DNA from: Gammaproteobacteria bacterium
GTDB lineage: Bacteria; Pseudomonadota; Gammaproteobacteria; JAABTG01
Direction of reading: 5' to 3'
Length of the DNA stretch: 64,000 bases
NCBI GenBank assembly: GCA_017999615.1
Contig: JAGNLM010000001.1
Location: 678,739-742,738 of the forward strand
In this document: piece after piece, positions 1,514 through 64,000 of the stretch
Position numbering within the stretch: the first letter of the stretch is position 1
Layout: every line of letters starts with the position of its first letter
The notes under the pieces: model-generated
What the model saw: only the letters and a program-made list of their open reading frames with translations
Told to the model about the DNA's origin: nothing
Database searches by the model: none
Position numbers and translations under genes: made by a program

Positions 1514-1638
1514 GTGGCAGGCATCGCTCCCGGCCGCAGAATGGATGCCTGGCCTCAAGAACCGGAGCCGACGCACGCAATTAGACGCATCTGTTGCTAA
1601 ACTGTGGCAAGTCAGGCGGTGGGGCAAGCGAGGCAGCG

Positions 1639-2304: not shown

Positions 2305-2343
2305 CCGGACGGGTCCGGCGCACCTCACCTTCGAGCGGACGGC

Positions 2344-3651: not shown

Positions 3652-3736
3652 AGTCTTCCCTCAAGCTCCCGGCCCCTCCGGCCGAGAACCCAGCGTACGG
3701 CACCGGCCGTGCCCGCATCGCCGCACCGACAGAACC

Positions 3737-5482: not shown

Positions 5483-5603
5483 GGGGCCACGGCGGCGGGT
5501 GGGGGAGCTCGGACCCACCCCATGCGGGCGGTTGACGGTTCGCCGGCATCCCGCCGCGCGGTCCTGGCGGTAGCGTGCCTGAATCGAGCGAGTCCGAGAG
5601 ACC

Positions 5604-6443: not shown

Positions 6444-6451
6444 CGAACGCG

Positions 6452-7333
6452 ATGTACGAGACGCACTTCGGCTTTCGCGAGAAACCCTTCTCGCTGCTCC
6501 CCGACCCGGGCTTCCTCTACCTCGGGCGCCGGCACAGCATGGCCCTCGCCATGCTCCAGTACGGCGTGCGCAGCCAGGCGGGCTTCACGGTCATCGCGGG
6601 CGAGATCGGCTCCGGGAAGACCACCCTCATCCGCCACCTGCTCGACCAACTCGAGTCGGACGTCACCGTCGGCCTCATCTCCAACACGCACAGCTCCTTC
6701 GGGGAGCTCCTCGAGTGGGTCCTGCTCGCCTTCGGCATCCCGCACCAGGGGCTCGACAAGGTCGCGCGTCACCACCGCTTCACGGAATTCCTGATCAGCG
6801 AGTATTCGAAGCGCCGGCGCACCGTGCTCATCATCGACGAGGCGCAGAACCTGGCGCCCGAGACGTTGGAGGAGCTGCGCATGCTCTCTAACATCAACGC
6901 CGACAAGAGCCTGGTGCTCCAACTCGTCCTGGTGGGTCAGCCGGAGCTGCGCATGTTGCTCCGCCGACCCGGTCTCGAGCAGTTCGCGCAGCGGGTCTCG
7001 GTGGCCTATTATCTCGAGGCGCTCTCTCTCGAGGAGACCGTGGCCTACGTGCGCCACCGGCTGAAGGTCGCTGGCGGCAATCCGCGGCTCTTCGACAGCG
7101 ACGCGCTGGAGTGGGTCCACCGGGCCAGCCGGGGTGTGCCGCGGGTCGTCAACACCATCTGCGACATGGCATTGGTGTACGCGTACGCCAGCGGTCAGAC
7201 CCAGGTCGACCGTGCCACTGTCGAAGAGGTGGTTCGCGACCGCGTGGCGACGGGTCTGTTCACTGCCCCGCAGGACGAAGAGCGCGAGCCTGCGCGCCTC
7301 GGCGACACCCAGAAGCTTCGCCCGGTGGGGTGA
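6452..7333 (+). CDS. Exosortase-system ExeA-like AAA ATPase
   Basis: A 293-residue AAA+ ATPase of the ExeA/GspA type. Walker A is GEIGSGKTT (50-58) and Walker B is VLIIDE (125-130). The N-terminus YETHFGFREKPFSLLPDPGFLYL is the family hallmark and the C-terminal half carries the lid region with GVPRVVNTICD. Homologues in exosortase loci are annotated as PEP-CTERM-associated ATPase; ExeA in type II secretion helps insert the secretin through peptidoglycan. This copy lacks the peptidoglycan-binding domain of ExeA. It likely powers assembly of the export machinery. It forms an operon with the kinase gene. Confidence 0.9.
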   Translation: MYETHFGFREKPFSLLPDPGFLYLGRRHSMALAMLQYGVRSQAGFTVIAGEIGSGKTTLIRHLLDQLESDVTVGLISNTHSSFGELLEWVLLAFGIPHQGLDKVARHHRFTEFLISEYSKRRRTVLIIDEAQNLAPETLEELRMLSNINADKSLVLQLVLVGQPELRMLLRRPGLEQFAQRVSVAYYLEALSLEETVAYVRHRLKVAGGNPRLFDSDALEWVHRASRGVPRVVNTICDMALVYAYASGQTQVDRATVEEVVRDRVATGLFTAPQDEEREPARLGDTQKLRPVG

Positions 7334-7362
7334 AAAGCGCTCGATCCGCTCCCGGGTGAGTC

Positions 7363-8334
7363 ATGGGGACGCGCCGGTACATCCTGGGCTGGACGGAGGA
7401 GGGACGCATCGCGCCCCAGGACGCCCGGCGCGCGCTGCGCACGGCCGGGGCGCTGCCGACCGGCCCCCAGTGGCGGCAGTTCGTCGCCCGCTTCCTCATC
7501 TGGCTCGGCACCGCCCTGGTCGCGGCCGGGGTGGTCCTGCTCCTCGTGTACAACTGGCAGATCCTGGGGCGCTTCGCGCGCCTCGCGGTGGTCGAGGGAC
7601 TGTTCGCCGCGGTGCTGGGGGTGATCGGTTGGTTCGGGCTCGCGCGGATCGAGGGTAAGCTCGCGCTCCTCGGGGCGGCGGTGCTGGTGGGGGCGCTGCT
7701 CGCACTCGTCGGTCAAACCTACCCGACCGGCGCCGACAGCCACGGACTGTTCGTCGCCTGGGGCCTCGCGCTCGTGCCGCTCGCCGCCGTCGGCGGGATG
7801 CCGACCCTGTGGCTGCTCCTGCTGGCCGTCGCGAACGGGGCCTTCCTCGCCTACTTCAGGGCCTTCGGCGGGCTCTTCGGCGTCCCCCTGGGCGTGGAGG
7901 GGCTGCTCTGGGCGCTCGTCGCCCTGAACACCGCCGTCCTGGTGCTCTGGGAGGTGCTGGCCTGGGTCGGGGCCGCCGGGCGCTGGGGCCCGCGCCTCGT
8001 GGGAGTCGTGTCGGGGGGGCTGGTCACGGGGCTCGCGCTCTGGAGCATCGTCGACCCCGCGGGGGGATCGGGCTGGGGGGTGCCGGCCTGGATCCTGTGG
8101 CTCGGGGCCGTCTACGCCGTGTACCGGCGCGTCATCCATGACGTGTTCCTGCTGGCGACGGCGGTGTCCTCGATTGTCCTGGTCGCCGCAACCTTCCTCA
8201 TCTGGCGCGCCGACATCCCCGAGTCGAACGCCCTTCTGATCGTCAGCCTGGTGGTGATTGGCGTCTCGGCGGCAGGCGCGCGCTGGCTGCGCGCGGTCTC
8301 GGCAGAGGAGCCCTCGGAGGAGGAGCCCCGGTGA
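7363..8334 (+). CDS. DUF2157 polytopic membrane protein
   Basis: A 323-residue protein. It has a soluble N-terminus (about 45 residues, rich in Arg, with WTEEGRIAPQDARRAL) followed by about eight to ten hydrophobic helices, beginning FLIWLGTALVAAGVVLLLVYNW. This is the DUF2157 pattern. DUF2157, DUF4401 and GDYXXLXY proteins are commonly encoded side by side, as here, and no function is established; a role in envelope homeostasis is a guess. The stop overlaps the next start by four bases (GTGA), which indicates translational coupling. The trio interrupts the exosortase locus without an obvious link to it. Confidence 0.8.
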   Translation: MGTRRYILGWTEEGRIAPQDARRALRTAGALPTGPQWRQFVARFLIWLGTALVAAGVVLLLVYNWQILGRFARLAVVEGLFAAVLGVIGWFGLARIEGKLALLGAAVLVGALLALVGQTYPTGADSHGLFVAWGLALVPLAAVGGMPTLWLLLLAVANGAFLAYFRAFGGLFGVPLGVEGLLWALVALNTAVLVLWEVLAWVGAAGRWGPRLVGVVSGGLVTGLALWSIVDPAGGSGWGVPAWILWLGAVYAVYRRVIHDVFLLATAVSSIVLVAATFLIWRADIPESNALLIVSLVVIGVSAAGARWLRAVSAEEPSEEEPR

Positions 8335-23100: not shown

Positions 23101-23198
23101 GAAATGGGGACATTCTGGTTTTCAGGCCGATGGAGCCGGGCGCTCTGCGGCGCGGGGTAGCCCTCGAGGAAACATGAAAACCAGAATGTCCCCATTTC
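23101..23198. repeat. 98-bp inverted-repeat element (copy A)
   Basis: A perfect 24-base inverted repeat: 23101-23124 (starting GAAATGGGGACATTCTGG) pairs with 23175-23198, with a 50-base GC-rich centre. The arms match those of the element at 25329-25412, with only the centre differing. No transposase is encoded, so it looks like a non-autonomous REP/MITE-type element. Confidence 0.9.
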
Positions 23199-24418: not shown

Positions 24419-25390
24419 TTGATTCCACGGGAAGCAAAGATCTGGGTGGCAGGGCACCGGGGCCTGGTGGGCTCGGCCATCGTCCGGGCGCTGCAGGCGC
24501 GCGGCTACGAGCGGGTCGTGACCCGCACGAGCGCGGAGCTCGACCTGCGCGAGCAGGCCGCGGTGCGCGCCTTCTACGCGGCAGAGCGGCCGGAGTACGT
24601 GTTCGTCGCTGCGGCGAAGGTCGGCGGGATCCTCGCGAACGACACCTACCCGGCCGAGTTCCTCTACGACAACCTGATGATCGAGGCGAACGTCATCCAC
24701 GGCGCCCACGCGGCCGGGGTGAAGAAGCTCCTCTTCCTCGGCAGCACCTGCATCTACCCGAAGCTCGCGCCCCAGCCGCTGCGCGAGGAGTACCTCCTGA
24801 CCGGGCCGCTCGAGCCCACCAACGAGTGGTACGCGGTCGCCAAGATCGCCGGCATCAAGCTCTGTCAGGCCTACCGGCGGCAGTACGGCGCGCACTTCAT
24901 CGCCGCCATGCCGACCAACCTCTACGGCCCGGGCGACAACTTCGATCTCGCCAGTTCGCACGTGCTCCCGGCGCTTCTGCGCAAGTTCCACGAGGCGAAG
25001 GTCGCCGGGGCCCCCGAGGTGGTGGTGTGGGGCAGCGGCACCCCGCGGCGCGAGTTCTGCCACGTGGACGACTGCGCCGAGGCCTGCCTGCACCTGATGC
25101 AGACCTACGACGACGCCGAGATCGTGAACGTCGGCGTCGGCGAAGACGTGAGCATCGCCGAGCTCGCGGCCCTGGTCGCGAAGGTCGTCGGCTACGCGGG
25201 CGCCATCGTCTACGACCGCTCCCGCCCCGACGGCACCCCGCGCAAGCTGGTCGACGTCTCGCGCATCACCGCCCTTGGCTGGCGCGCCCGCATCCCGCTC
25301 GAGCAGGGGATCGCCGACACCTACGCCTGGAAATGGGGACATTCTGGTTTTCAGGCCGATGAGACGGGCCGAACGGAGCCCTCGCCCTGA
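24419..25390 (+). CDS. fcl: GDP-L-fucose synthase with repeat-derived C-terminus
   Basis: A 323-residue epimerase/reductase that turns the Gmd product into GDP-L-fucose with NADPH. The nucleotide-binding loop is [11 protein letters not shown] (10-20). Catalytic Ser109 and Cys111 lie in LGSTCIYPK, and Tyr138/Lys142 in [11 protein letters not shown]. The start is a TTG at 24419, with no better codon nearby. The last 19-20 residues, from about W304 to the stop, are encoded by the inverted-repeat element at 25329-25412: the TGA at 25388-25390 lies in its right arm. The element has thus replaced the original end of the gene. Because total length is still close to the usual 320 residues, the enzyme is probably active. 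Confidence 0.93.
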
Positions 25391-25412
25391 AAACCAGAAT
25401 GTCCCCATTTCC
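25329..25412. repeat. 84-bp inverted-repeat element (copy B) at the end of fcl
   Basis: A perfect 27-base inverted repeat: 25329-25355 (starting GGAAATGGGGACATTCTGG) pairs with 25386-25412, with a 30-base centre. The arms equal those of copy A at 23101-23198 plus three extra bases. It supplies the last codons and stop of fcl and could act as a terminator-like hairpin between fcl and the next promoter. Confidence 0.9.
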
Positions 25413-51896: not shown

Positions 51897-53753
51897 TCAG
51901 CGCCCCCCGAATTTTTCATGGAAAGACTCTTCGAAGAATCCGCCCGGCCATTCATCAATGAAGTCGCCTTCTTCATCGATGCGCAGCTCAATGAAACGGC
52001 TGCCGCGCGCCAAGGGTTCAACAAAGACGACTCCGACGTCATTGGGGCTTATCTTTCCTTCACGGATTCGACGCATCAGGCGCAAAATCAAATGCTCACT
52101 GTGGGTCTCCAAGATGAATGTGTTCTTGCGTTCGCGCAACGCAGCCTCGATGAAAACGTCGCCCAGCTCGGCCTGGAGCGCCGGATGCAAGTGGATTTCT
52201 GGCTGTTCCATCGCCAATAGCTTCCCGCGCGAACCATAGGCCAGCACCAATACTGGCAAGACCTGAGAGATACCAATACCGACATCGCGGTGGGTGACGA
52301 TTGTGTTTTTTCGGACGTCGCGCAGCACCAACTCTTCAAGTACCCCACCAGATTTCGCCGCCGTAGCAAGTTGGGCGAGAGAATTTGCGAGAAACTCCGC
52401 TTCTTGCTCGGGTGCATTCAGAATTGATGCATCGCTCAGGGTGAGTGCAAGCTGAGCGAGGGCTTCCTCACTGACGCTGCCAGAGCCATCCGGCTCCAGT
52501 TCCCTACGGGAACCTATTTCAAACGCCTCCATCAACCATTCGTCGATCTCAGTACCACCTCCGCGCCCTGGTTGCGCATATGTCGGATCGCGGCGCTTGG
52601 ATTCGTTGTGCAATGCAACGTAGCGCTCTGTCACAGCATCGACAAGCCACTGAGTCACGTCAGGCTGCGCGAAATGCTTGACAACTTCGAGCCGATAAGG
52701 CGTCTTCAATTTATCGGAACTCAGCCAGCCATTTACGGCCTCCCGCACAGCATCGTCGCGACGCACGACGTCCCAGGCATAACCGCCGCCGGCATACCAA
52801 TTGGCGTCTTCATGTTCGGCAAAGGCTAGATGGCGTGGGGGGAAAGAGCGCAGCGGACCAAGGTACTGCAGCTGCTTGAGATCGTCGGCCAGCGCATCGG
52901 CCAGTCCCTTAATTAAGTCGTTCAATGTGCGGGGCAGGACGAATCGGACAGCTTGCGCGATGTCTTCCTTACGGTTGCCCTTGCTGACGGGGAACAACAT
53001 ACTAACTGGCGAGATATCGCCGCCGTCGGTCTTGGGCAGTTCCACACTAGATGGGAGGAACTGATCGACGCGCACCACGAGTTCCGGCAGCAGTGAGGAG
53101 ATGGCCTCATTGGCGCCTTCAAAATCTTCAGGGCGCATTTCTTCGGACGTGGTTTGCGCCTCAACGATGGCTTTCAGTACTTGGCGAAATACGGCATGGT
53201 CGCTGGCGAGGCGGTCCAGACGAAGGTGACCAGCGTGGACATCTGATCGCAAGGTCGCTGGGCGGCGGCTCATGCGCAGCAACTCAGCGCCGTCGGCGGT
53301 GATCTCGATGGAGTCCACCCGGGGCTCCGCACCCGGCTTTGGGCGGTCCTGATCGTCCAACTCAATGCCGAGGGCGATGTTCAGGGCCACGCTGCTGACC
53401 GGGGCCAGCAGTTGTGCCAGTCGCTGATCCTTGCCTTGGGCCAGTGATGACACCTTGATTTCAGCACCCCATTCCACGCGCTTGTTCAGTTGCCCACGGT
53501 GCACGTACTGACGAAAGCCGCCAAGGTCAATGGCGCTGCCGCCCACGTCCGTGTGGTGGACGTCCAGACGGGCCAGACTGCGCTTTTCTCGACCGAACTG
53601 TGCTTCGTGCGCCAGCGCAAGGCTGTGAATGAAGCTGGACTTGCCGGCGCTGTTGGGGCCGAAGATCAGCGTGATCGGCTTGAGTGGGATGCGCTGGGTA
53701 TCAGCAAAGGCCTTGAAGTTGCCCACGCGCAGGGCTTGAAGGCGGCGAGTCAT
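51897..53753 (-). CDS. AAA/OLD-like ATPase with DUF3696 C-terminus
   Basis: A 618-residue ABC/SMC-class ATPase. Walker A is GPNSAGKSS (32-40), preceded by LRVGNFKAFADTQ. The C-terminal half holds the signature and Walker B region, MEQPEIHLHPALQAELGD, and the switch LETHSEHLILRLMRRI. The last residues, EWPGGFFEESFHEKF, are the DUF3696 tail. There is no TOPRIM nuclease domain, so it is not a full OLD protein. Such ATPases pair with separate effector genes in several defence systems. It starts with ATG 53753, overlapping the hsdS stop by four bases, so it belongs to the restriction operon. Confidence 0.85.
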   Translation of the reverse strand: MTRRLQALRVGNFKAFADTQRIPLKPITLIFGPNSAGKSSFIHSLALAHEAQFGREKRSLARLDVHHTDVGGSAIDLGGFRQYVHRGQLNKRVEWGAEIKVSSLAQGKDQRLAQLLAPVSSVALNIALGIELDDQDRPKPGAEPRVDSIEITADGAELLRMSRRPATLRSDVHAGHLRLDRLASDHAVFRQVLKAIVEAQTTSEEMRPEDFEGANEAISSLLPELVVRVDQFLPSSVELPKTDGGDISPVSMLFPVSKGNRKEDIAQAVRFVLPRTLNDLIKGLADALADDLKQLQYLGPLRSFPPRHLAFAEHEDANWYAGGGYAWDVVRRDDAVREAVNGWLSSDKLKTPYRLEVVKHFAQPDVTQWLVDAVTERYVALHNESKRRDPTYAQPGRGGGTEIDEWLMEAFEIGSRRELEPDGSGSVSEEALAQLALTLSDASILNAPEQEAEFLANSLAQLATAAKSGGVLEELVLRDVRKNTIVTHRDVGIGISQVLPVLVLAYGSRGKLLAMEQPEIHLHPALQAELGDVFIEAALRERKNTFILETHSEHLILRLMRRIREGKISPNDVGVVFVEPLARGSRFIELRIDEEGDFIDEWPGGFFEESFHEKFGGR

Positions 53754-55015
53754 GGCAGTGCCTCCAGTTCCTTTGGCATTGGCAGATTCAGCGCGCGGGC
53801 CTGTTGGGCCATCTCTGCCAACAGTTCCCGCAAATGGCCCTCCCGCCATTGGGCGGTGAGTTGGCCGGAAAAGGCGTGTAGTAGCAAAGTGGAAAACGTG
53901 GCTTCCAACTGCTCTGCTGCGCTATCAGCTTTTGTGAGCACCTGCTCAATTTCCTTAGCCAGCTTGCCAAACTTCTGTTGCAACGGTTGAGGGGGCTCAG
54001 GAGTCAAAAGGCCGGAATACTCTTGGCCATTGATGTTGGGCTGCCCTGCAACACGTTTATGCGATTCAACCCAGCCTCGGTAATAAGCCGTTCGAGTCAC
54101 CCCAAAGACGAACCACGGGTCAACTGCTCCAGATCGGAATTGGAACCGAATCAGGTACCCTGCAAATGCGCATGGACCATCATCCGGACGATATATGTAC
54201 GTCTTGCCCACGGTATTACCACTTCTTGCAAAGAGTACATCGCCGTCGTGCAGCAGGTATCGCCGCCAATCATCGGAATCGAGGGAAACGCTCTCTTTTT
54301 CAGAGAGAGTTCCATTGTCCCGAATATCGGTGATTCGCACATAGCGAGGCATGACACCTTTTCTTGGACAAGCACTGGCATTTGCGCCGTACTCAGGCCG
54401 CTGATCGGCTAGATCGCCAAGCGGCTTCATTGGCCATCCCATCGGATTCGTCGCAGGGTCGCCGAACATCTTGAGGAACAGTGCAGGCAGGATGCGGGCG
54501 GCCTTGGCGTCGGCTTCGCGACGCAGGCGGCGCAGACGGTTGGCTTCGTCGAGAAGTTCGACAATGCGAGATTGCTCTCTTGGCGACGGAATCGGTGCCT
54601 CATGCGCCCAGAACCAATCCATGACCACGCGCGGCATCTTGGCTCCAGCAACGTGGTGTGACGCCTGATTTACGAATCCGGGGGAGCGCAGGTAATACGC
54701 CAGAAAACGAGGATTTAGCGTTTTCGGGTCCGGGCGCAATGGAATCAACTCAGTGGTGGCAATTCCTGCTTCGTCAGGAACCGCCACTTTGTTCAAATAG
54801 GGCCGCAACTTCGAATAGAGCACATTACCCGTGTCGAAGTTGAACGTCGATGTCCCAGCATCTGAGGCTGCGGCATAGCGCTTTTCGACAATTTCACCGG
54901 ATTCGCTTTCGATCTGATCCAGTGAGAGTTGCCACACTTGGTCGTCAGGCGCGAAGGCGATTTGCGCTGTGACGGGCGGAGCGACCTTACGCAGTGGTGC
55001 GGTAAGCCATGTCAT
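53750..55015 (-). CDS. hsdS: Type I restriction specificity subunit HsdS
   Basis: 421 residues with two target-recognition domains, each followed by a conserved helix. The first ends in IPSPREQSRIVELLDEANRLRRLR (about 140-170) and the second in LTPEPPQPLQQKFGKLAKEIEQVL (about 355-380). The TRDs contain LRPYLNKVAVPDEAGIATTEL and ILFARSGNTVGKT-like segments typical of HsdS. The two TRDs set the two halves of the recognition sequence; which sequence cannot be read here. It overlaps hsdM and the ATPase gene by four bases each (ATGA). Confidence 0.92.
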   Translation of the reverse strand: MTWLTAPLRKVAPPVTAQIAFAPDDQVWQLSLDQIESESGEIVEKRYAAASDAGTSTFNFDTGNVLYSKLRPYLNKVAVPDEAGIATTELIPLRPDPKTLNPRFLAYYLRSPGFVNQASHHVAGAKMPRVVMDWFWAHEAPIPSPREQSRIVELLDEANRLRRLRREADAKAARILPALFLKMFGDPATNPMGWPMKPLGDLADQRPEYGANASACPRKGVMPRYVRITDIRDNGTLSEKESVSLDSDDWRRYLLHDGDVLFARSGNTVGKTYIYRPDDGPCAFAGYLIRFQFRSGAVDPWFVFGVTRTAYYRGWVESHKRVAGQPNINGQEYSGLLTPEPPQPLQQKFGKLAKEIEQVLTKADSAAEQLEATFSTLLLHAFSGQLTAQWREGHLRELLAEMAQQARALNLPMPKELEALP

Positions 55016-56655
55016 CGTGGCAACTCCTCCAGCAACTTCTCCAACCCTGCTACCACCTTGCGGTAGTCACCCAGCACCTCGGCAACCAGCTCACTAGGAT
55101 CTAAATCGCTGGTCTTTTCCGCGACGCGTGGTTTCCATTGACCGGCACCCAGGTTGTAGTCGCCCTCGGCCAGCTTCTCGCGGGTGGTCCACCAGCAGGT
55201 GGGCTCCTTACTGCCGTGTGCCAGCAGGGTGTTGGCCTCCAGCCCCGGCGGGATGGTGTAGCCACTGGCCTTGTAAGCCTTCCACTGCGCGAGCAGGTCG
55301 GGAATATCATTCTTTTCAGGCGTTTCCACGCGGCCGCCACCGGAAATCTTGTCCGGGTCGTAACCGTCATTGCGCACCTCGTAAAACCAGACCTTGTCCA
55401 GGCGCTTGGCGGCTTCGGAGGCTGGTTTGCGGAACACCAGCACGGCGGTCTTTACTCCGGCGTAAGGCTTGAAGACGCCAGCTGGCAGGCTGACGACGGC
55501 CAGCAGGTCGAAGTCGTGAACCAGCTTTTTACGCAGTTCCACGTGCGCCCCGGTGGAGCCGAATAACAGCCCTTCGGGCACTACCACCGCACAGCGGCCA
55601 CCGGGCGCAAGGTGCTGCATCATCAGTGACATGAACAGCAGTTCGCTTTTCTTGCTGTTGGTGGGCAAGTCGGCGCGGATGGAGTCCTTGGGCAATTGGC
55701 CTGCGAAGGGCGGGTTGGCCAAGATGACTTTGTAGCGGCGCCGCAGATCGTCCTCGGTCAGGCCGCCCATGTCGGAGAGCGAGTTGGCGCGCTTGAGCTT
55801 GGCGTGGCGGATGCCGTGCAGCACGAGGTTCATCATGCTGATGCGCAACATCTGGCGCGACACATCGGTGCCGTACACCGATGCTTCGAGCAGGCTCCAA
55901 TCCGGAATTTTTTCGCCCGCGCCCTTGCGGTAGGTTTGCAGGCGTGGGATTTCAGCCTTCAGCTCAGCCAGCGACTTACCCTTCTTCTCTAGCCAGTCCT
56001 CGCCATAGATGGGGTATTCGCTGATGTGATCAGAATATTTGGCCAGCAGGTAGTCCACAGCATCGATCAGGAAACCGGCAGTGCCCATCGCAGGGTCGAA
56101 CATCGAATCGCCGATGTCCGGGTCAACCATCTCGACCATAAATGCACGGATCTGACGCGGCGTGCGGAACTGTCCGTTGAGCGAACTGGAGCCCAAGTGC
56201 ACCAACAGGTATTCGAAGATGTCACCCTTCACATCCGGGCCAAGCTTGCGGAATTCGAATCCGTCCAACTCGTCGATCACCTGCTTCAGCACGTTGGGGT
56301 CGACGATTTCCAAGACCGCGTCGCGGAAGTATTCCGCCACCTCGGGCTCGTCTTTAGCCAGCGAAGCCATGTAAGGGAAGACTTCGTCGCGGATGAAGTC
56401 GCGCAGGTCGGTACCGCTCTTAAAGCGCCAGTTACTCCAACGGTAGCGCTCGGACTGTGCGGGATAAAGTAGCGCGGCGTTGCCGCCGGTGGCACCAAGG
56501 CGAGCGCGCAGCTCGCGGTCGGACTCCTCTTCGTCTAGCAGCTTCAGGAAGATGAGGTAGGAGATCTGTTCGATGTAGGTGACCGGGTTCGTCACACCGC
56601 CTGCCCAGAGGATGTCGGTGATGTGATCGAGCTTGCGGCGTAATTGGTGATTCAT
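55012..56655 (-). CDS. hsdM: Type I N6-adenine methyltransferase HsdM
   Basis: A 547-residue gamma-type adenine methylase. The N-terminal HsdM helical domain is followed by the AdoMet site DPAMGTAGFLIDAVDYLL and the catalytic motif ILANPPFAG (N-P-P-F). Downstream regions GGRCAVVVPEGLLFGS and LLAVVSLPAGVFKPYAGVKTAVLVF are conserved across the family. With HsdS it methylates host DNA. The ATG at 56655 is 26 bases after the hsdR stop. Codon use is less G+C-rich than in the recBCD region. Confidence 0.95.
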   Translation of the reverse strand: MNHQLRRKLDHITDILWAGGVTNPVTYIEQISYLIFLKLLDEEESDRELRARLGATGGNAALLYPAQSERYRWSNWRFKSGTDLRDFIRDEVFPYMASLAKDEPEVAEYFRDAVLEIVDPNVLKQVIDELDGFEFRKLGPDVKGDIFEYLLVHLGSSSLNGQFRTPRQIRAFMVEMVDPDIGDSMFDPAMGTAGFLIDAVDYLLAKYSDHISEYPIYGEDWLEKKGKSLAELKAEIPRLQTYRKGAGEKIPDWSLLEASVYGTDVSRQMLRISMMNLVLHGIRHAKLKRANSLSDMGGLTEDDLRRRYKVILANPPFAGQLPKDSIRADLPTNSKKSELLFMSLMMQHLAPGGRCAVVVPEGLLFGSTGAHVELRKKLVHDFDLLAVVSLPAGVFKPYAGVKTAVLVFRKPASEAAKRLDKVWFYEVRNDGYDPDKISGGGRVETPEKNDIPDLLAQWKAYKASGYTIPPGLEANTLLAHGSKEPTCWWTTREKLAEGDYNLGAGQWKPRVAEKTSDLDPSELVAEVLGDYRKVVAGLEKLLEELPR

Positions 56656-56680
56656 GTCTTTTTCCTAATTTCGATCGGCG

Positions 56681-58942
56681 CTACGCCACCAGGACGGATT
56701 GGTTGATCTCGTCCATCACGTTGCGCAGACCCTGCTCGCCAAACAGTTCGATGCCGATGTTGGCGGCGTTGAGAATGGACAGCGGCGGGGCGAACAGGTC
56801 GTCGAGCGAAACCTTGCCTTTCACCAAGCCACGGTTCTTGAGCAGCGCAAGATATTGCGCCTGCTCGGGGGTAAGGTTCTTGGCCACGAGCCAAGCGCGG
56901 AAGTTATCCTCCACGCGCTCCTCGCGGCTCTTGATCTTGAGCATGCCCAGCGCGGCGCGGATGAAGTCCACCAAGTTGCCACCCGGGTTGCGGTAGGCCC
57001 GGCGCAGGTTGTCTTCATTGAAGTAACGCTGCGGTTGGTTCAGGCGCTGGGCGAGTTGAGCCTCTTCTTCTTCCGACAGCGCATCGCCCGCTTTGACCTT
57101 GGCGATGATGGGATCGGCCTCCGCCTCCTGCTGGACGGTGGTTTCCCAATCTGTCACGTAATCGCGCTTGTCGACGCGCTCGCCGTCCGGACCCACCTCG
57201 ATGTAGTGGACTGCGTCCAGCCATTCGTCTTCTAGGCCAAGCTCAATCAGCTCCCGCGGCGTCTTGCCACCCGGTTGTTTGGGCTTGGGTGCGTAACCAC
57301 CGCCACTGCTGCCGGAGAAGATGTCGGTGTCCGAGTCGTTGAAATACTCGTGGTTGCGGAAGAAGTCGTAAATGACGAACTTCTCTTTGCCGATGTGCGG
57401 TGCTGTACGTGTGCCACGCCCACGCATCTGTTGATAGAGGATGGGGCTACGCACTCGGCGGCACATCACAAGATGCAGCACCTCGCGGCAATCAAAGCCC
57501 GTGTCGAGCATGCCCACGCTGACTGCGACCATGGGCAGATCTTCCTGTTTGAAGCGGCGGATCAGGTCGTCTGCATTGGCCACGTCAGAAGTGATGACCT
57601 CGGCGTAGCGACCCTTGTGCTCGGGATGCAGGTCATTCAGGTATTGCGCCAGCCGTGCCGCGTGGTGCTTGGTGATCGCAAACACTACCGACTTACCAGG
57701 ACCGTTCTTTTGTCCCGGCGCCAACTCCTTGTAGCTCTGCCAGGCCAGTCGGTCGAACTCCTCCATCATCAGCCTGTTGCTGGCCTCGTTGGTCCACTTG
57801 CGCTCGAACTCGGCTGGATCGTAGTGCTCCTCATCGACCTTGGCGCCTTCGGACACCAAGGTGGTGATGCCGGTGGCGAATTTGTAGGGCACGAGAAAGC
57901 CTTCCTTGAAGGCCTCCTGGATCGGGTAGGAGTAGTCTGGCGTGTCGTCCTTGCAGTGATAGAACTGGAACGTGTTGCGCTCGATGTAAATGGCCGGGGT
58001 GGCGGTGAGGCCGATGTGCAGTGCATCGAAGTGCGAAAGCGCAGCCTGCCACGCGCCGTAGATGGAACGGTGGCATTCGTCCATCACGACCACATCAAAG
58101 TAGCCGCTGGTGAACTCGTGATAGCGGCCAATCATGGTTTGCAGCAGGCACACGGTAACCTGCTTTTCCTGCCGGACCATTCCGGGCTTGAGCCAATAGC
58201 TGGAATAGCCGGGGAGCAAATCCTGAATGGCCTCGATGGCCTGCTTGGCAAGCTGATCGCGGTCGACCAGGAACAGGACGCGCTCGGCCTGCCCAGCCTG
58301 CACGAGGCGCTTGAGGTAAAGCGCGATCAGATCGGTCTTGCCGCAACCAGTGGGCAACTCGATCAGGAAGCGACGCTTGCCCAGTTCAACCGTGCGGTCA
58401 AGCGCCTGCATGGCCTCCTTCTGGTAGGGGCGCAGGGAGCGCGTCTCACCCTGGCGCATGTAGGTGTCCGGGATCGGCACCGTGGCCAGTGGCTTGCGTT
58501 CGGCACGCATGTGAACCAAACGCTCCAGGTCGCGCCGGGAGAAGAAGGAGTTGACGATGCGGGCATCGTCGTTCTGGTAGTCCCAGAAATAGATCAGTTC
58601 GCCGTTGGTGAGGAAAATGAACGGCGCACCGATTTGCTTGGCGTAGGGCAGCGCTTGCTGCTTGGCGGTGTAGGGCTGAATGGCCTGCTTTTTGGCCTCA
58701 ATGATGGCCAACGGGCGACCACGCTCGTCCAGCAAGACATAGTCGGCACGGCCTGTAGGAATGGCGTCGCCATCCGACGTGCTGAAAACAGTGGGTTGCG
58801 CCCCCAGCTCGGCCACGAAATGACCGCCTGCGACTTTGACCTCGGTGAGCACCTGGGACTTGTCTGCCGGATTCCAGCCGGCAGCGCGCAGCTGATCGTC
58901 GATCAGGATGCGTGCGTCGGTTTCTTTGTTCTGGGCGTTCAA
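56681..58942 (-). CDS. hsdR: Type I restriction endonuclease subunit HsdR (EcoEI-like)
   Basis: 753 residues. The N-terminal nuclease has the PD-(D/E)XK set Asp67 (GRADYVLL), Glu82 and Lys84 (LAIIEAKKQ). The superfamily 2 motor follows with Walker A PTGCGKT (197-203), DECH (288-291), LTATP and MRGRGTRTAP. The C-terminal 200 residues match the EcoEI_R C-terminal domain, which binds the methylase core. The start is TTG 58942, with GGAG upstream; an upstream ATG reads into a stop after three codons. The first gene of the operon, it lies 37 bases downstream of the predicted start of a sigma-54 promoter. Confidence 0.93.
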   Translation of the reverse strand: MNAQNKETDARILIDDQLRAAGWNPADKSQVLTEVKVAGGHFVAELGAQPTVFSTSDGDAIPTGRADYVLLDERGRPLAIIEAKKQAIQPYTAKQQALPYAKQIGAPFIFLTNGELIYFWDYQNDDARIVNSFFSRRDLERLVHMRAERKPLATVPIPDTYMRQGETRSLRPYQKEAMQALDRTVELGKRRFLIELPTGCGKTDLIALYLKRLVQAGQAERVLFLVDRDQLAKQAIEAIQDLLPGYSSYWLKPGMVRQEKQVTVCLLQTMIGRYHEFTSGYFDVVVMDECHRSIYGAWQAALSHFDALHIGLTATPAIYIERNTFQFYHCKDDTPDYSYPIQEAFKEGFLVPYKFATGITTLVSEGAKVDEEHYDPAEFERKWTNEASNRLMMEEFDRLAWQSYKELAPGQKNGPGKSVVFAITKHHAARLAQYLNDLHPEHKGRYAEVITSDVANADDLIRRFKQEDLPMVAVSVGMLDTGFDCREVLHLVMCRRVRSPILYQQMRGRGTRTAPHIGKEKFVIYDFFRNHEYFNDSDTDIFSGSSGGGYAPKPKQPGGKTPRELIELGLEDEWLDAVHYIEVGPDGERVDKRDYVTDWETTVQQEAEADPIIAKVKAGDALSEEEEAQLAQRLNQPQRYFNEDNLRRAYRNPGGNLVDFIRAALGMLKIKSREERVEDNFRAWLVAKNLTPEQAQYLALLKNRGLVKGKVSLDDLFAPPLSILNAANIGIELFGEQGLRNVMDEINQSVLVA

Positions 58943-58988
58943 GTCAGTACTCCATGATTACAAATTTTTTTGTTAGTGACAGGCTATA

Positions 58989-59004
58989 AGCACATGCCGT
59001 GCCA
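58989..59004 (-). promoter_or_regulatory. Sigma-54 promoter of the hsdRMS operon
   Basis: On the minus strand TGGCACGGCATGTGCT has a perfect -24 box (TGGCAC), exact GG-N10-GC spacing and GTGC in place of TTGC at -12. It begins two bases after the stop codon of the sigma-54 activator gene and points to hsdR, giving a leader of about 37 nt. GTTGGC is duplicated immediately upstream. Restriction operons are rarely RpoN-dependent. Confidence 0.75.
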
Positions 59005-59005
59005 A

Positions 59006-60502
59006 CTAGCCAACTCCGTATTTCTGAAGCCAGTTACTAAGGGTCTGATAGCTGCCAATCCCAAGGATTCGGGCGGCCTCGGACTTATTGCCGTGCGTCT
59101 GAGCCATGGCGCGCTCAAGGTAGTGGCGCGCGACGTCTCCAATGATGTCCGGCAGTGAAATCGCCTGATCCAGAGGGCGGCCGAGGATGGTGTCAGCCTT
59201 TGGAGCGACCGTTACAGCCAAAGACTCGGCCACGTCCTGCGTGGTGATCTTGTCGCCCACGGCCCAAATGCTGGCACGCAGCAGTGTGTTGTGGAGTTCC
59301 CGAACGTTACCAGGCCAAGAGTGCTGAATCAGAAGGTTTCTTGCGGAAACATCTAATTTCTTGTGCTTGTAACCCGGCTGCGACGCAGCCTCGGCATTGA
59401 TGGAGGCCAGCATCGAGTCGATCAGCATGTTGAGATCACCCTCACGCTGGCGCAGAGGGGGCAGGAGCAGCACCCCTACGGCTAAGCGGTGGAAAAGGTC
59501 TTCCCGGAATCGACCCTCCCTGATCTCATCGGGCAGGACTCGATTCGTGGCGGCGATAACGCGGATATCGATGGGCTTGGCCCGTGTGGCGCCGACACGG
59601 GTAACTTCACGCTCCTGCAAGACCCGCAGCAGCCTGACTTGAGATGCCAGCGGCAGTTCGCCGATCTCATCGAGGAACAGGGTGCCGCCATCGGCCGACT
59701 CGAAGTAACCAGCCCGAGCTGCGGTAGCGCCGGTGAATGCGCCCTTCTCATGGCCGAACAGTTCTGCATCAACCAGTTCTTGAGGGATAGCGCCACAGTT
59801 GACTGCGACGAACGGCTTTGCGTTGCGTGGACTGGCCTGATGGATAGCGCGCGCGAACAACTCTTTTCCGGTTCCGGATTCGCCCTGGATGAGCACGGGC
59901 ACATCGCGAACCGCCAAGCGATGCGCCATCGCCACGGTGCGTTTCATTGCAGCGCAGCGGTGGACGATTGCAGTGAAAGCTGGACTTTCGGGCGGCACGC
60001 CCATCATCAGGCGAGTCAGAGCCTCATCTGCCTGCTTGTCAGCAACAGGCACAAACTCGGCCGACAACTCAAAGGGAATGCTGACCTCTTTGACACCGTG
60101 CTCCCGCGAAGACTCGATCAGTTTTGCAGCGTACCGAGTCTTGGCAAGCAGCAGCCAGATGGCTGCCATGGCCGGAGTGCCTGGGCTCAGATGAAACACT
60201 AGGTCGCCAAAAGGTGAAGCACGCTTGACTTCCTCGATCACGCCGACGGCAGCACGGAAGATCTCTTCAAAACTGGTTGGACTGGTGAGCTTGGCTTGAT
60301 GTGACGTCACCGGCACTGACGACTGCCGTCCAACCCACTGGGCGTACGCACGGGTCTTCTGGATGCTGTGATCGGACAGCAGGTGCAATGCATCAAAGGG
60401 GAACGCCTGGAGCGCGCCCAAGATGGGCCCTTGCTCATCGGAGCCTCCGGCCTCCCCAGCGCGCAGGTCAGCATTGCCTAGCCAAGCCAGCAAAATTGCC
60501 AT
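59006..60502 (-). CDS. Sigma-54 activator with CARF-like sensor domain
   Basis: 498 residues. Residues 1-155 form an N-terminal domain with LLAWLGNAD at the start and [20 protein letters not shown] (103-122). The S-x-GT-p pattern and strand order resemble CARF domains, as in RtcR, which bind cyclic oligonucleotides or RNA ends. The AAA+ domain is complete: Walker A GESGTGKE (207-214), the sigma-54-contacting GAFTGA loop (254-259), Walker B LFLDEI (275-280) and the arginine-finger region REDLFHRL. A Fis-type helix-turn-helix ([20 protein letters not shown]) ends the protein. No response-regulator domain is present, so the signal is likely a ligand. It lies directly upstream of the hsd operon and its sigma-54 promoter. 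RtcR itself usually flanks rtcBA, which are absent here. Confidence 0.85.
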
Positions 60503-60536
60503 AGATTAGAAGATTTTCAATGCAATCACAAGAAAT

Positions 60537-60542
60537 ATTGTA
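60537..60542 (-). promoter_or_regulatory. Possible sigma-70 -10 of the activator gene
   Basis: On the minus strand TACAAT matches five of six bases of a -10 box, 34 bases before the activator's ATG. The -35 region is weak. The surrounding sequence is AT-rich, unlike its neighbours. Confidence 0.35.
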
Positions 60543-60630
60543 CTTTGATCGGGATTGATTGAACAGCAGCTTGGCTTCTTGATCGTTCAGCGCGTGAATG
60601 GTGGCGTCATCCATCAACCCGGAGCCCACC

Positions 60631-60834
60631 ATGACCACCCAGACCACCGCCATCGACGCCTATCTCGCCCGCGCCGCAGCCATCTACATCAAGTTCGCCC
60701 GGCTACAGCAACTGGCCGGCGACCACTTCGGCCATGACCCTGACGCCATCCACTGGGGCCACGTCGGGGACCTCGGGCGGGTGGATCAGGCGCTGGATGA
60801 CCTTCTGGCGATCTTCGACGGCCAGGCCAAGTGA
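60631..60834 (+). CDS. Small protein of a mobile element, unknown function
   Basis: 67 residues from ATG 60631, preceded by GGAG. The protein is mostly helical with a His/Asp-rich middle (GDHFGHDPDAIHWGHVGDLGRVDQALDDLL). No family recognised. It overlaps the following frame and probably forms a transcript with the DUF3489 gene. It diverges from the activator of the defence operon, with about 130 bases between them. Confidence 0.6.
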   Translation: MTTQTTAIDAYLARAAAIYIKFARLQQLAGDHFGHDPDAIHWGHVGDLGRVDQALDDLLAIFDGQAK

Positions 60835-60842
60835 CGGAGGCC

Positions 60843-61331
60843 ATGATGGAGACCCTGCTCAAACTCTCCCCGGCCCAAAGCCTGCTGCTCCGCACTGCCG
60901 CCCGCCGTCCTGATGGGCGAGTGATCCCGCCCGACACGCTGCGCGGCGGCGCACGGGTCAAGGTGCTGACCTCACTGCTGCAGCGCGGGTGGATCGAGCC
61001 TGCCGACAGCGGCCACGTCATGACCGACGCGGGCTACGCGGCCATCGGCCAGCAACGGCCCATGCCGCCGGATGACGTCCAGCCGATGGACGCCACCGAC
61101 GACTTCCAAGTTCTGGAGGGCATCCCAATCCGCCCTGGCACCAAGCTGGCCGCACTGGTGATGGCGCTACGCCGCCCGCAAGGCGCGACCAGTCTCCAAC
61201 TGATGCTGGCCACCGGCTGGCAACAACACACCGTGCGCGGAGCCATCTCCGGGATGCTGCGCAAGAAGCTGGGCCTGAACGTGGTCTTGGCGCACAATGA
61301 ATCCGGCGAACGGGTGTACAGGGTGGTTTGA
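60843..61331 (+). CDS. DUF3489 protein
   Basis: About 162 residues. The N-terminal 75 residues (LSPAQSLLLRTAARRPDGRVIPP and RVKVLTSLLQRGWIEPADSGHVMTDAGYAAIG) form a small winged-helix-like unit. The C-terminal part, PGTKLAALVMALRRPQGATSLQLMLATGWQQHTVRGAISG, is DUF3489. Such proteins are common in phages and integrated elements and are thought to be DNA-binding. CGGAGG at 60836-60841 favours ATG 60843 or 60846 over GTG 60831. The next 900 bases hold no gene but several repeats. Confidence 0.8.
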   Translation: MMETLLKLSPAQSLLLRTAARRPDGRVIPPDTLRGGARVKVLTSLLQRGWIEPADSGHVMTDAGYAAIGQQRPMPPDDVQPMDATDDFQVLEGIPIRPGTKLAALVMALRRPQGATSLQLMLATGWQQHTVRGAISGMLRKKLGLNVVLAHNESGERVYRVV

Positions 61332-61382
61332 TCTGCCGCCAAGGGTGTCCAGTTTCTTGAGGCCCTGCGGATACCCCGGCGT

Positions 61383-61481
61383 GTCTGACGCATCGGACAC
61401 AGCTCCACGTAACTCTCTATACGCGTGCGCGTGTGCGCGCCTCACGGAAAGTTACGACAACCTGTGTCCGATGCGTCAGAC
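61383..61481. repeat. Perfect 20-bp inverted repeat
   Basis: GTCTGACGCATCGGACACAG at 61383-61402 is exactly complementary to 61462-61481. Inside it CGTAACT (61408-61414) pairs with AGTTACG (61450-61456), and an alternating GCGC/GTGT tract lies at the centre. Each outer arm is itself a rough dyad (TGTC...GACA), so both could be binding sites for one dimeric protein. Confidence 0.9.
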
Positions 61482-61533
61482 GGTGCGCAAAGGCTCGTGG
61501 GCCGATTTCTGCAACCCAGCCAGCGAATCGGCT

Positions 61534-61725
61534 GCAAACCCGCGCCAGCATTGAGTTTTCTTTCCTGGCCGTTTTTCGCTTGGCCGGGGTGCAAACCTGC
61601 GAACCGGGTACGCACCAAGGTTCGCACCTTCCGCGTTGCGGCCATCCCGCGCAGGCCCGCGCTGACCGGGCTTTCGCCCCCCTTGCCCACACACTGCCAG
61701 GTGCGAACCGCAAACCCTGCAAACC
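61534..61725. repeat. Iteron-like GC[A/G]AACC heptamers
   Basis: Direct copies lie at 61534, 61591, 61599, 61703, 61710 and 61719, plus one inverted copy at 61619-61625. Several are spaced by 7-9 bases. Together with the downstream primase-like gene they resemble the iterons of plasmid, phage or satellite origins. Confidence 0.5.
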
Positions 61726-62235
61726 TTGTTTTATAGTCGGACGGTGGCGAAATTCTGCGCTCGCGCCCCCCGCATGGCGATTCGGGCGGGAAGGACCCCT
61801 TTTGCATGGGCTGCGGTGGCGGGCGCCGCGCTCGGGCACCTGAAGATCCTTGCCTCCGGCACAGAAGGGGGGTTTGGTGACTTTAGTGGGTTTACTTCCC
61901 CCTGCTCTATATAAATGCCATCTGCCAAATCGCTCGCGTAAGGATGGAAACACCCCCCTAATCCTACAAACCCACCCTTGAGCCGGGCTGGGAAGGCGAG
62001 CACGAAAGGGGCTTGCGCTCCGCATGCAAGCGCCGAGTTCGGGCCCGATCGAGAAATAACGTGTTTTAGCGGAGGTCAGGGGAGAAGGTCGGCCATCAGC
62101 GGCAATCCATTGAATACGCGACCTTTTCCTCGATTTTCAATCTCCCATACTGTCACTCCATGAGCATCACGACGGATCGCCGAGCCCCATCGAGGGGCCG
62201 GTCGGTCAGTGATCACCACCCTCAGGAGGACAGCA

Positions 62236-62427
62236 ATGCATCTCACCCCGCAACAGCTCGCGGCCCGCTGGCAGATCAGCGAGAAGACCTTGGAGCGCTG
62301 GCGCCGCCGGGGGACTGGACCGCACTTCCTGCGCGTCGTCGGCCGCGTGCTGTATCCGCTCGAAGCCGTCCAGGCGTGTGAAGCCCAAGGGCTCGTCGCG
62401 CGGCCGTGTCAGGAAGCCCGTTCGTGA
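62236..62427 (+). CDS. AlpA-like helix-turn-helix regulator
   Basis: 63 residues from ATG 62236, with AGGAGG eight bases upstream. The whole protein is an excisionase/AlpA-type winged helix: [48 protein letters not shown] carries the LAxRW...S..TLxRWR..G.GP.F...G..V.Y recognition pattern. In integrative elements such proteins control excision or early transcription. Its stop overlaps the next start (GTGA). Confidence 0.85.
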   Translation: MHLTPQQLAARWQISEKTLERWRRRGTGPHFLRVVGRVLYPLEAVQACEAQGLVARPCQEARS

Positions 62428-62678
62428 GCGGCCCCGCTTCCCCCTCTCGTCGTCGCGTACGGTACTTCAAGCGCGAGGTACAACGCGCGCTGGCCAACGG
62501 GGGTATGCCGCGGTTCCTGGATGCGCTCTTTGGCGTCGGCGCCTGGACCTACGACCCCGTCGAGAAACTCTGGATCGTGCCCGATCGCAACGCTTCCGGG
62601 CCGGGGCGCGAGTACTACTGCATCCAGATTACCGGCGACTGGTTCAAGGCGCGGCTCTCCGACGAGGAGTGCTCATGA
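62424..62678 (+). CDS. Small protein between HTH and replication genes
   Basis: 84 residues from GTG 62424. The protein is basic at the N-terminus (SRRRVRYFKREVQRALANG) and has an aromatic C-terminal half (GAWTYDPVEKLWIVPDRN and YYCIQITGDWFKARLS). No family recognised. It is coupled at both ends by four-base overlaps, so it belongs to the same replication-type operon. Confidence 0.65.
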   Translation: MSGPASPSRRRVRYFKREVQRALANGGMPRFLDALFGVGAWTYDPVEKLWIVPDRNASGPGREYYCIQITGDWFKARLSDEECS

Positions 62679-64000
62679 CCGTCCCGAGCGCACAGCCGAT
62701 CCGCTTCACCGTGTTTCACGCGCAGCAACCGCGGCGACTCTCGAAGGCCTTTCGCCTCGCCGCCGACGGCACGCTGACCCGTGAGCCGGGTGGCGTGTTG
62801 GTCAGCGGACGGGCGCGGCAAGTGGCGGTGACGAGCCTGGCCGAGTTCGCCTCGGTCCTGACCGCACTCACCCCTGCCAACGCCGCCGCTTTCGGCATCA
62901 CCCGATTCGCAACCGTTCGCATCGTCCCCAAGCGCGAGGCCCATCACCCGAATCTCCTCCATCGCCCTTGCGAGCAGCCGATCGTCTCTCGCACCCGCGA
63001 ACACTTTGACTGGCCTGCTGGCCCGGGCCTGATGATGCTCGATTACGACCCTGCCCCGGGATGCGAAGCACTCGCCCCGCAGGCGTGGCGCGAGCTCCTG
63101 TACGCCGTGTGGCCGCAACTGCAACACGCCCCGCACCTGTGGCGTCCGTCGGCCTCGTCGTGCATCGAGAACACTGAGACGGGCGAAGTCCTGCACGGGA
63201 TCACGGGGCAACGCCTCTACATCGTCGTCGCCGACGCGACCGACATCCCCCGGGCAGGCCAAGTGCTGGTTGATCGACTGTGGCTCGCGGGTCACGGCCG
63301 CTTCGATGTCTCGCGCTCGGGCGCCTTGCTCGAACGCACCGTCGTCGATGCAGCCGTGTGGCAACCCGAGCGGCTGGACTTCTGCGGCGGTGCGCAGTGC
63401 GAACCGCCCCTGGTGCAGCGCCTGTGTGATCCGGTGATCGTCAACGATGATGCACCGCCGATCGATACGGTCGCCACCCTGGCCGAACTCAGCGCGGCCG
63501 AGCGAGCCCAACTCGCGGCGCTCAAGCGCGCACTGGAACTGGAGCCCGATCTTCAGCATGAAGTGAGCCTTGCCCATGCAGCCTGGGTCGAGGAACGTCT
63601 GACGAGTTGGCAGCGCCGCCATCCGCAAGCGGATGCAGAGAGCGGTCGCAAGCTCCTGCTGCGCGCGGTGCGCGACAAGCGCCTGATGGGGGACTTCGAT
63701 CTGGTGCTCGATGACGGCGAGCGCGTCAGTGTCGGCGCGATGCTCGACGATCCGGAGCGCTATCACAACCGCCGCTGCGCCGATCCGCTGGAGCCCGACT
63801 ACCAGCACGATGCGCGCATCGCGTGGATCAACCTGCGCAATGCCGGTCGCCCCTATATCTATAGTCACGCACACGGCGGCACGCGCTACACCCTACATCG
63901 CCCTGCACGCACGCTGCGCCTGGTCGGCGGCGAGTTGCACCGGTTGGTGCGCAGCGTACTCGACCTGATGCGGCTCGACGGCACCGCGTTCGACCGCGGT
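62675..64000 (+). CDS. Primase/replication-like protein of a mobile element, 5' part
   Basis: The frame opens with ATG 62675, overlapping the previous stop, and is open for 442 codons to the end of the window. The N-terminal half has GLMMLDYDPAPG (an acidic strand-turn typical of primase/polymerase active sites), SSSC-like PSASSCIENTETGEVLHG and GQRLYIVVADATDIPRAG. Later comes RKLLLRAVRDKRLMGDFDLVLDDGE and RPYIYSHAHGGTRYTLHRPA, the region found before the helicase part of phage/plasmid primases. An ATPase domain would be expected further on. It probably replicates the element or its excised form. Assignment rests on motif resemblance only. Confidence 0.7.
   Translation, partial: MTVPSAQPIRFTVFHAQQPRRLSKAFRLAADGTLTREPGGVLVSGRARQVAVTSLAEFASVLTALTPANAAAFGITRFATVRIVPKREAHHPNLLHRPCEQPIVSRTREHFDWPAGPGLMMLDYDPAPGCEALAPQAWRELLYAVWPQLQHAPHLWRPSASSCIENTETGEVLHGITGQRLYIVVADATDIPRAGQVLVDRLWLAGHGRFDVSRSGALLERTVVDAAVWQPERLDFCGGAQCEPPLVQRLCDPVIVNDDAPPIDTVATLAELSAAERAQLAALKRALELEPDLQHEVSLAHAAWVEERLTSWQRRHPQADAESGRKLLLRAVRDKRLMGDFDLVLDDGERVSVGAMLDDPERYHNRRCADPLEPDYQHDARIAWINLRNAGRPYIYSHAHGGTRYTLHRPARTLRLVGGELHRLVRSVLDLMRLDGTAFDRG

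Follow-up and report, generated by a model that had tools for sequence, protein, structure and literature searches.

A predicted cos site and an origin-like palindrome in a gene-free stretch of a putative phage satellite from a gammaproteobacterium

Introduction

What function can be assigned to a gene-free stretch of about 900 bp which contains a perfect inverted repeat and a cluster of short repeated motifs, and which lies upstream of the genes coding for an AlpA-like regulator and a primase-like protein? The question is raised by positions 61383-61725 of the window, i.e., the whole stretch of 64,000 nucleotides analysed here, which originates from contig JAGNLM010000001.1 of a gammaproteobacterial genome (GenBank assembly GCA_017999615.1). 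According to the initial annotation, the stretch could serve as the replication origin or control region of an element comparable to satellite phages such as P4, with GC[A/G]AACC heptamers acting as iterons bound by the primase-helicase. P4 possesses an origin bound by its primase-helicase (alpha/ori) and carries the cos of its helper; P4-like satellites contain psu/sid/delta genes, and the PICI of Gram-negative bacteria a tyrosine integrase.

The heptamers and the inverted repeat are two different things. Very probably, this stretch devoid of genes constitutes the cis-acting core of a phage satellite, with a minus-strand cos site (61534-61798) and a probable phage-type origin (61383-61481). 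This reading rests on the position, spacing and conservation of the repeats, on their co-variation with TerS, on the match to a mapped phage end and on the absence of detectable packaging genes.

Features of the gene-free stretch

The perfect 20-bp inverted repeat occurs exactly as reported in the initial annotation, and the seven GC[A/G]AACC heptamers were confirmed at their places (Table 1), all within 192 bp and, with the exception of that at 61619, on the plus strand. Their clustering is far beyond chance (P(≥7) = 4.3e-12, or 1.4e-9 after correction for 333 windows): 27 heptamers occur on both strands of the remainder of the 64-kb window, corresponding to 0.08 expected per 192 bp, and the second-densest 192-bp stretch contains 2. 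GCAAACC and GCGAACC are the other-strand readings of GGTTTGC and GGTTCGC, two repeat kinds known from the phages described below, and the array is mixed in type, with four GGTTTGC and three GGTTCGC. The conserved block to which the heptamers belong extends past 61383-61725, up to the predicted cosN core.

Eight open frames of 61-202 aa between the stop of the DUF3489 gene (61331) and the AlpA-type gene (62209) gave no Pfam match, in agreement with the initial description of a gene-free stretch upstream of the AlpA-like and primase-like genes. A search of Rfam over 60400-62700 yielded a single chance match and no RNA candidate. The inverted repeat is rare, yet its length is not unique, because the window contains two longer perfect ones, of 27 bp (25329-25412) and 24 bp (23101-23198). 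These are two copies of one hairpin (GGAAATGGGGACATTCTGGTTTTCA and its complement), with loops of 50 nt at 23101-23198 and 30 nt at 25329-25412, and are unrelated to the 20-bp inverted repeat of the cos region.

Table 1. Features of the putative satellite in the window.
Feature	Position	Strand	Remarks
Probable defence cargo: type I restriction-modification (HsdS, HsdM, HsdR) and RtcR/PspF-type CARF regulator	53750..60502	-	
78-aa protein, PHROG 14596 (E 4.6e-16)	60598..60834	+	Partner of the DUF3489 gene
DUF3489 protein (PF11994, PHROG 10315)	60831..61331	+	
Origin-like palindrome	61383..61481	strandless	20-bp perfect arms (GTCTGACGCATCGGACACAG, 61383-61402; reverse complement, 61462-61481); 59-nt loop rich in alternating GC
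Distal TerS-type repeat GGTTTGC	61534..61540	-	
Distal repeat GGTTTGC	61591..61597	-	
Distal repeat GGTTCGC	61599..61605	-	
Distal repeat GGTTCGC	61619..61625	+	Inverted relative to the other repeats
Proximal cosB repeat 3, GGTTCGC	61703..61709	-	
Proximal cosB repeat 2, GGTTTGC	61710..61716	-	
Proximal cosB repeat 1, GGTTTGC	61719..61725	-	First base at nt 46, counted from the left cohesive end as predicted; same position in RcKemmy
Predicted cosN core, GGGTCCTTCC-N15-GCGGGGGGCGCGAGCG	61758..61798	-	PWM score 65.7 bits
Predicted 11-base 5' overhang, GGGGGCGCGAG	61760..61770	-	Placed by analogy with RcKemmy
AlpA-like (HTH_17) regulator	62209..62427	+	Probable start ATG 62236
90-aa protein of the AlpA-primase unit	62406..62678	+	Conserved, 77% in A. 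evansii
DNA primase (PHROG 16593/29234)	62675..64000	+	Runs past the window, 614 aa in total

The cos site and its phage counterparts

By DNA search, positions 61700-61814 were found to possess a 73% copy on another contig (C7) of the same genome. This copy lies inside a prophage, upstream of ParB-methylase genes which are followed by the genes of TerS (PHROG 57) and of a GpA-type TerL. Along the direction of the terminase, the prophage displays a GC-rich conserved block, the repeats, the methylases, TerS and TerL, an order which corresponds to the succession cosN, cosB, terminase given for lambda in the accessible part of PMC9026076. The letters of the overhang predicted for the window are identical to those of this resident prophage.

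The site is widespread among phages. Searched with a spacer left free at 5-30 bases, the pattern GGGTCCTTCC-N-GCGGGGGGCGCGAGCG matches at least 120 stretches of IMG/VR. Among the matches listed, the spacer measures 15 bases in 118 and 14 bases in 2; a ParB-methylase gene accompanies all 88 sites having at least 1 kb downstream, a DUF6362 gene 108 of the 109 having at least 1 kb upstream, and TerS 19 of the 20 having at least 6 kb downstream (the exception being L017), and the repeats located downstream of the conserved block are GGTTTGC, GGTTCGC or GGTTACC. Compared by DNA with named phages, the 910-bp gene-free stretch showed no similarity, and a 59-nt cos query gave only weak matches to 11 phage records and one plasmid, none of them covering 80%.

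Mapped ends of phage genomes provide a further landmark. The TerL of the C7 prophage shares 56% identity with that of RcKemmy and the other Rhodobacter cluster RcC phages, whose genome ends were mapped from read ends and carry an 11-base 5' overhang (PMC8601537, accessible part). The RcKemmy record ends with CTATGCG and begins with GGGGGCGGAAGCGCG, and joining the end to the start rebuilds the conserved cos layout. A cos position weight matrix (PWM) trained on the IMG/VR phage sites, with RcKemmy left out, has its best match in the RcKemmy record exactly over this join (31.8 bits, the next match scoring -3.3), and the best score reached in 20 letter-shuffled 64-kb windows, read on one strand, was 4.0 bits, as compared to 65.7 bits for the window site. 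The repeats of RcKemmy, of the GGTTTCC type, begin at base 46 of the genome, and the first repeat of the window also starts at nt 46, counted from the predicted end. This distance holds in 119 of 150 phage sites, the others having nt 45 (29 sites) or no repeat (2 sites). Among 37 satellite sites it holds in 34, one having nt 65 and two no repeat. Many satellite sites diverge from those of phages between cosN and cosB, with CTACCG or CCACCG versus TAGCG. RcOceanus, whose record is opened at gene 1, contains the cos site intact at an internal position, with GGTTTCC repeats; inspection of the ends of S-CBS3 by eye revealed no such site.

The heptamers of the window are taken as TerS sites because their position, spacing and type match those of cos sites, and their interpretation as the cosB, i.e., the predicted terminase-binding part, of a minus-strand cos is close to certain as far as sequence comparison goes.

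Two additional observations concern the surroundings of the phage sites. A second conserved block, TAGTATTTCAGCTATCTTCTGGACAG, occurs 60 bases before cosN in many phages (e.g., L009, L011, L024) and is absent from the window satellite; it possibly corresponds to a cosQ-side element or a promoter. In phages such as L007, L024 and L219, a DUF3489 gene oriented in the opposite direction lies between cos and TerS; in satellites, this gene is found beside cos.

Repeat class and terminase recognition

Among the 55 phage loci possessing both cos and TerS (16 of which were aligned), the N-terminal helix-turn-helix (HTH) of TerS varies mainly at a few residues of the second helix, and these residues follow the repeat: GGTTACC is associated with H-V-K in 20 of 20 cases, GGTTCGC with D-A-R in 9 of 9 and GGTTTGC with D-T-H in 25 of 26. 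The concordance amounts to 54 of 55 phages, the best of 20,000 shuffles, which ignore kinship, reaching 35. In L219, the sole exception, the repeat counts are tied, with one GGTTTGC, one GGTTCGC and two AGTTCGC. Outside this set of 55 phages, RcKemmy pairs H-T-G with GGTTTCC. Many natural phages are distributed in four terminase classes, readable from three residues and two bases. On a simple reading, to which RcKemmy also conforms, residue D or H would correspond to G or C at base 6 of the repeat, and T, V or A to T, A or C at base 5; the contributions of the separate residues are not separable because the third residue varies too.

A quick TerL tree contains at least eight changes of repeat type where two would do. 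Because 20 of its forks are open and the well-supported branches taken alone force one change per class, a repeated joint switching of the repeat and the TerS helix is no more than suggested. In one TerS structure model (mean pLDDT 66, and about 81-85 in the HTH part), the variable residues open the second HTH helix (positions 24-32); in the lambda TerS DNA-binding domain, the second helix is the recognition helix (PMC9026076, accessible part). A Foldseek search with this model returned nothing at E ≤ 0.001, and a PDB sequence search with TerS only weak matches, mostly to Cro.

Satellite-type loci across genomes

A total of 56 cos loci was considered: the window, the locus of A. evansii (L191) and 54 further stretches (L192-L245), the latter representing all other cos sites found in two sets of genomes, 369 from the window class and 395 from the A. 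evansii family, except that on C7 in the window's own genome. Reversed-pattern controls of both genome searches gave no match. DUF6362, methylase, TerS or TerL genes are present in 30 of the 56 loci, and none of them in the other 26, which include the window; no TerS homologue was found in these satellite-type loci.

Proteins of RcKemmy devoted to packaging and structure, used as queries at E 1e-4, detected TerS and TerL in all 20 prophage controls drawn from the 30 phage-type loci, the portal protein in 18 and gpW in 12, and gave no match in 27 regions covering all 26 satellite-type loci (two regions overlap others, and the window side ends with the contig); for capsid and tail genes the comparison is a weak test, because one distant phage was queried and the controls gave TerS, TerL, portal and gpW only.

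The 25 satellite-type loci other than the window share a recurrent set of genes, comprising a serine recombinase (18 loci), DUF2924 (18), DUF3489 (19) and its 78-aa partner (16), together with an AlpA-type gene similar to the two used as queries (10). The recombinase is missing in seven, in some of them perhaps owing to the ends of the stretches, and L211, L216 and L235, which contain little or none of this gene set, may be relics. The primase kind of the window occurs in two loci only, those of A. evansii (primase 87% identical) and of genome G507 (L205, primase 93% identical to that of A. evansii), which are the nearest relatives of the window unit; in both, cos lies between DUF3489 and the AlpA-primase unit, with type I restriction genes beyond. 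The cargo of the A. evansii satellite (L127, 2131-3851) comprises DarT together with a macrodomain protein, the two likely forming a DarT/DarG toxin-antitoxin pair. Two different cos satellites occur in each of two genomes, L202 and L203 in G668, and L204 and L205, about 27 kb apart, in G507.

Clear ends were recognized in G751, where direct repeats beside tRNA-Ala(CGC) delimit an element of 19.3 kb. The duplicated stretch consists of exact pieces of 25, 20 and 15 bp at one offset, and the recombinase, DUF2924, two cos sites, DUF3489 and type I restriction genes lie between the repeats. In five of the six relatives searched for element ends, these were not delimited by any repeat longer than 16 bases. 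A tRNA or tmRNA gene occurs in 13 of 24 satellite stretches scanned, namely tRNA-Ala(CGC) in seven, tRNA-Met in three, tmRNA in two and tRNA-Thr in one. L008 was considered as a further satellite and discarded, as phage-like left-arm genes were recognized in it by eye.

There is strong reason to regard the 26 loci devoid of phage packaging genes as cos-type phage satellites. The satellite setting proposed by the initial annotation is in keeping with the AlpA-type gene, with a primase which is longer in relatives and with the absence of packaging genes. Five genomes contain both a satellite and a phage-type cos locus, and in four of them the repeat class of the resident prophage is also found in the satellite cos: the genome of the window (C7, GGTTCGC), G541 (GGTTTGC), G501 (GGTTACC) and G433 (GGTTTGC). 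In the fifth, G450, repeats are lacking from the satellite-type site (L235).

Paired cos sites of different class

Two cos sites on opposite strands occur in 11 of the 26 satellite-type loci, distributed in ten genomes; because these loci are related, they do not represent eleven independent events. In all eleven, the first exact repeat is GGTTTGC at one site and GGTTACC at the other, although, in the case of L242, the array of GGTTACC repeats opens with a variant one and the GGTTTGC site is weak (22.3 bits). The paired sites are separated by 4.5 to 8 kb, or by 177 bases in L214.

Two cos sites in one satellite are not new, since EcCICFT073 and SaPIbov4 possess two each (PMC6092414, accessible part). 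In such two-cos PICI, cos1 matters most, though both sites are functional when cloned (PMC6092414, PMC6739421, accessible parts). In the literature searched, in which most subscription papers were out of reach, we found no report of paired cos sites belonging to two terminase classes. As judged from the repeats, we incline, by a narrow margin, to the view that two-cos satellites hedge on their helpers, phages with a TerS of the D-T-H class (GGTTTGC) and of the H-V-K class (GGTTACC) both being able to package them. With opposite orientations, packaging from one cos would not end early at the other. The single array of the window, mixing GGTTTGC and GGTTCGC, might similarly be open to two terminase classes, and the helper class of the element is uncertain because of this mixture.

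The elements could alternatively derive from prophages which kept their cos and lost everything else. The window copy is indeed damaged, and DUF3489 and the recombinase type are common to phages. However, elements of similar gene order and devoid of phage packaging genes recur in other genomes, one relative has the clear ends of a 19.3-kb element, and a second cos of another class in 11 loci is unexpected from random decay, which makes prophage decay improbable.

The origin-like palindrome

Copies of the window palindrome occur in the satellite L242 (96%), also right after DUF3489, and in phage loci, at 76-84% in 19 and at 72-73% in two more (two duplicate stretches being left out); the exact 20-mer is absent from IMG/VR. 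Among 19 satellite-type loci searched just downstream of cos, a palindrome with 14 or more perfect pairs was found only in the window and L242. Some palindrome is present upstream of 98 of the 143 phage and satellite cos sites with enough upstream sequence, and reaches a score of at least 15 in 70, including the two satellite-type loci L206 and L216. As many as 66 of these 70 palindromes start within 60 bases past the stop of a long open frame, mostly that of a primase-helicase where the product is given, and most of the 70 lie about 1.2-1.4 kb before cosN.

The arms consist of two tandem short repeats of one type, and the type tracks the C-terminus of the preceding protein, with an identity of 0.71-0.99 within a palindrome type and 0.28-0.49 between types (up to eight loci per type), CTGACGC versus CTGACGG (0.74) being the exception. 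Such features would be expected of an origin to which the C-terminal domain of the primase binds, as in P4. The palindrome of the window is of the CTGACGC kind and that of the C7 prophage of the GTGACGG kind; the former follows DUF3489, and the primase of the window belongs to another family than the phage primase-helicases. From these resemblances, the inverted repeat is probably an origin of phage type.

The proposal that the entire stretch serves the element as its replication origin, with the heptamers as iterons bound by its own primase, draws on the adjoining primase gene and on the origin-like palindrome. It is nevertheless very unlikely: the same heptamers occur at the same distance from cosN in phages, beside a primase of a different family, they follow the recognition helix of TerS, and no cos was found in the sequence inspected around six more distant relatives of the primase (in G158, G154, G251, G003, Thiocystis and Yoonia), the best score being 6.3 bits versus 65.7. 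With no cos found near these distant relatives, the satellites are not defined by the family of their primase. The origin suggested by the initial annotation is thus probably right for the inverted repeat, because palindromes follow the phage primase-helicases, and wrong for the heptamers, whose position, spacing and type are those of TerS sites in cosB; the comparison with P4 is better for packaging than for iterons. That the heptamers are operators for the AlpA-type or DUF3489 regulator, the cos likeness being a by-product of shared control regions, is suggested by their location upstream of the AlpA-type gene and is most improbable, as neither the overhang block, nor a spacing of 46 nt, nor the match to the mapped phage end would be expected of operators.

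Proposed functioning and comparison with known satellites

Under the preferred reading of a satellite with a helper-type cos, we infer the following course for a copy still active. The cos would have been copied from, or be common to, phages of a widespread group whose terminase is lambda-type (GpA). With a helper active in the cell, TerS would bind the heptamers via its N-terminal helix-turn-helix, TerL would nick cosN by cuts 11 bases apart, and the satellite DNA would be packaged into helper phage particles. The inverted repeat at 61383-61481 would be recognised by a primase-helicase and act as a replication origin. Besides its own AlpA-type regulator and primase, the satellite would carry a type I restriction system, and integration would be achieved by a serine recombinase such as that seen in relatives.

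With RcKemmy (cluster RcC; PMC8601537), the window element has in common the cosN, the repeats at a fixed distance, the 11-base overhang, which is predicted in the window, and, as far as the related phages are concerned, the GpA-family terminase, but the repeats are GGTTTCC in RcKemmy and GGTTTGC/GGTTCGC in the window, and the TerS-TerL genes which follow cos in phages are lacking from the window element. EcCICFT073 of E. coli and its Gram-negative kin among the PICI (PMC6092414, PMC6739421, PMC9026076) resemble it by AlpA, a primase-replication gene, the absence of terminase and a helper-like cosN. However, the cosB of PICI is unlike that of the helper and is read by an Rpp-TerS complex (PMC6092414, PMC6739421, PMC9026076), whereas the cosB repeats of the present satellites are of helper type, the two-cos relatives pair two terminase classes in opposite orientation, and relatives of the window element possess a serine recombinase. 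P4-like satellites (see PMC8628076, PMC9122126) similarly combine an AlpA-type regulator, a primase and defence cargo, and differ in that the present helper group has a lambda-type terminase and the relatives a serine recombinase. The PICMI of Vibrionaceae (PMC10803314) share AlpA, a small replication set and the absence of capsid remodelling genes; in contrast to the window element, of which cos is the central feature, no cos or pac was found in them and headful packaging is suggested.

What is new here is the existence of cos-type satellites with helper-type TerS sites, often with two cos of different class; the parts themselves are ordinary. The choice of helper by satellites, and the escape of phages, are usually studied pair by pair. 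Because the classes of phages are readable and satellites bear matching sites, the helper range becomes testable from sequence, and the portable cos pattern offers a way to find satellites with restriction systems.

Gene content and state of the window copy

The type I restriction genes and the CARF regulator upstream of the DUF3489 gene probably belong to the element, judging from its relatives. The regulator itself (59006-60502), located beside the restriction genes, is an RtcR/PspF-type CARF sigma-54 activator (PADLOC, E 1.6e-199).

Primases related to the 614-aa protein of the window are longer (at least 915 aa, and 1001 aa). Their additional portion contains a Walker A-like GSGKS motif, read by eye, and gave no domain in Pfam. 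A primase-like gene without helicase had been named in the initial annotation as evidence against its origin proposal; the window primase does lack a helicase, though only because it is cut short. Downstream of it lies a transposase gene with an rve domain, presumably IS21-like, within which the contig (C1) ends, 1363 bases past the window. Neither a recombinase nor a second cos belonging to the window copy was found, and a gene common to 13 of the 25 other satellite-type loci gave nothing when searched in the window's own genome. The copy looks damaged and may be defective or no longer mobile, because of its short primase, the transposase, the contig end and the recombinase and second cos which were not found.

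Contig C8 was considered as the missing right part of the element and rejected, its genes fitting another prophage better. It contains, at 1-7400 (L266, G000:C8), an AlpA-type gene, a 159-aa protein, a serine recombinase and DUF2924, with tRNA-Ala(CGC) nearby. Its early module is prophage-like and probably belongs to a further phage of the same kind, resident in the genome of the window.
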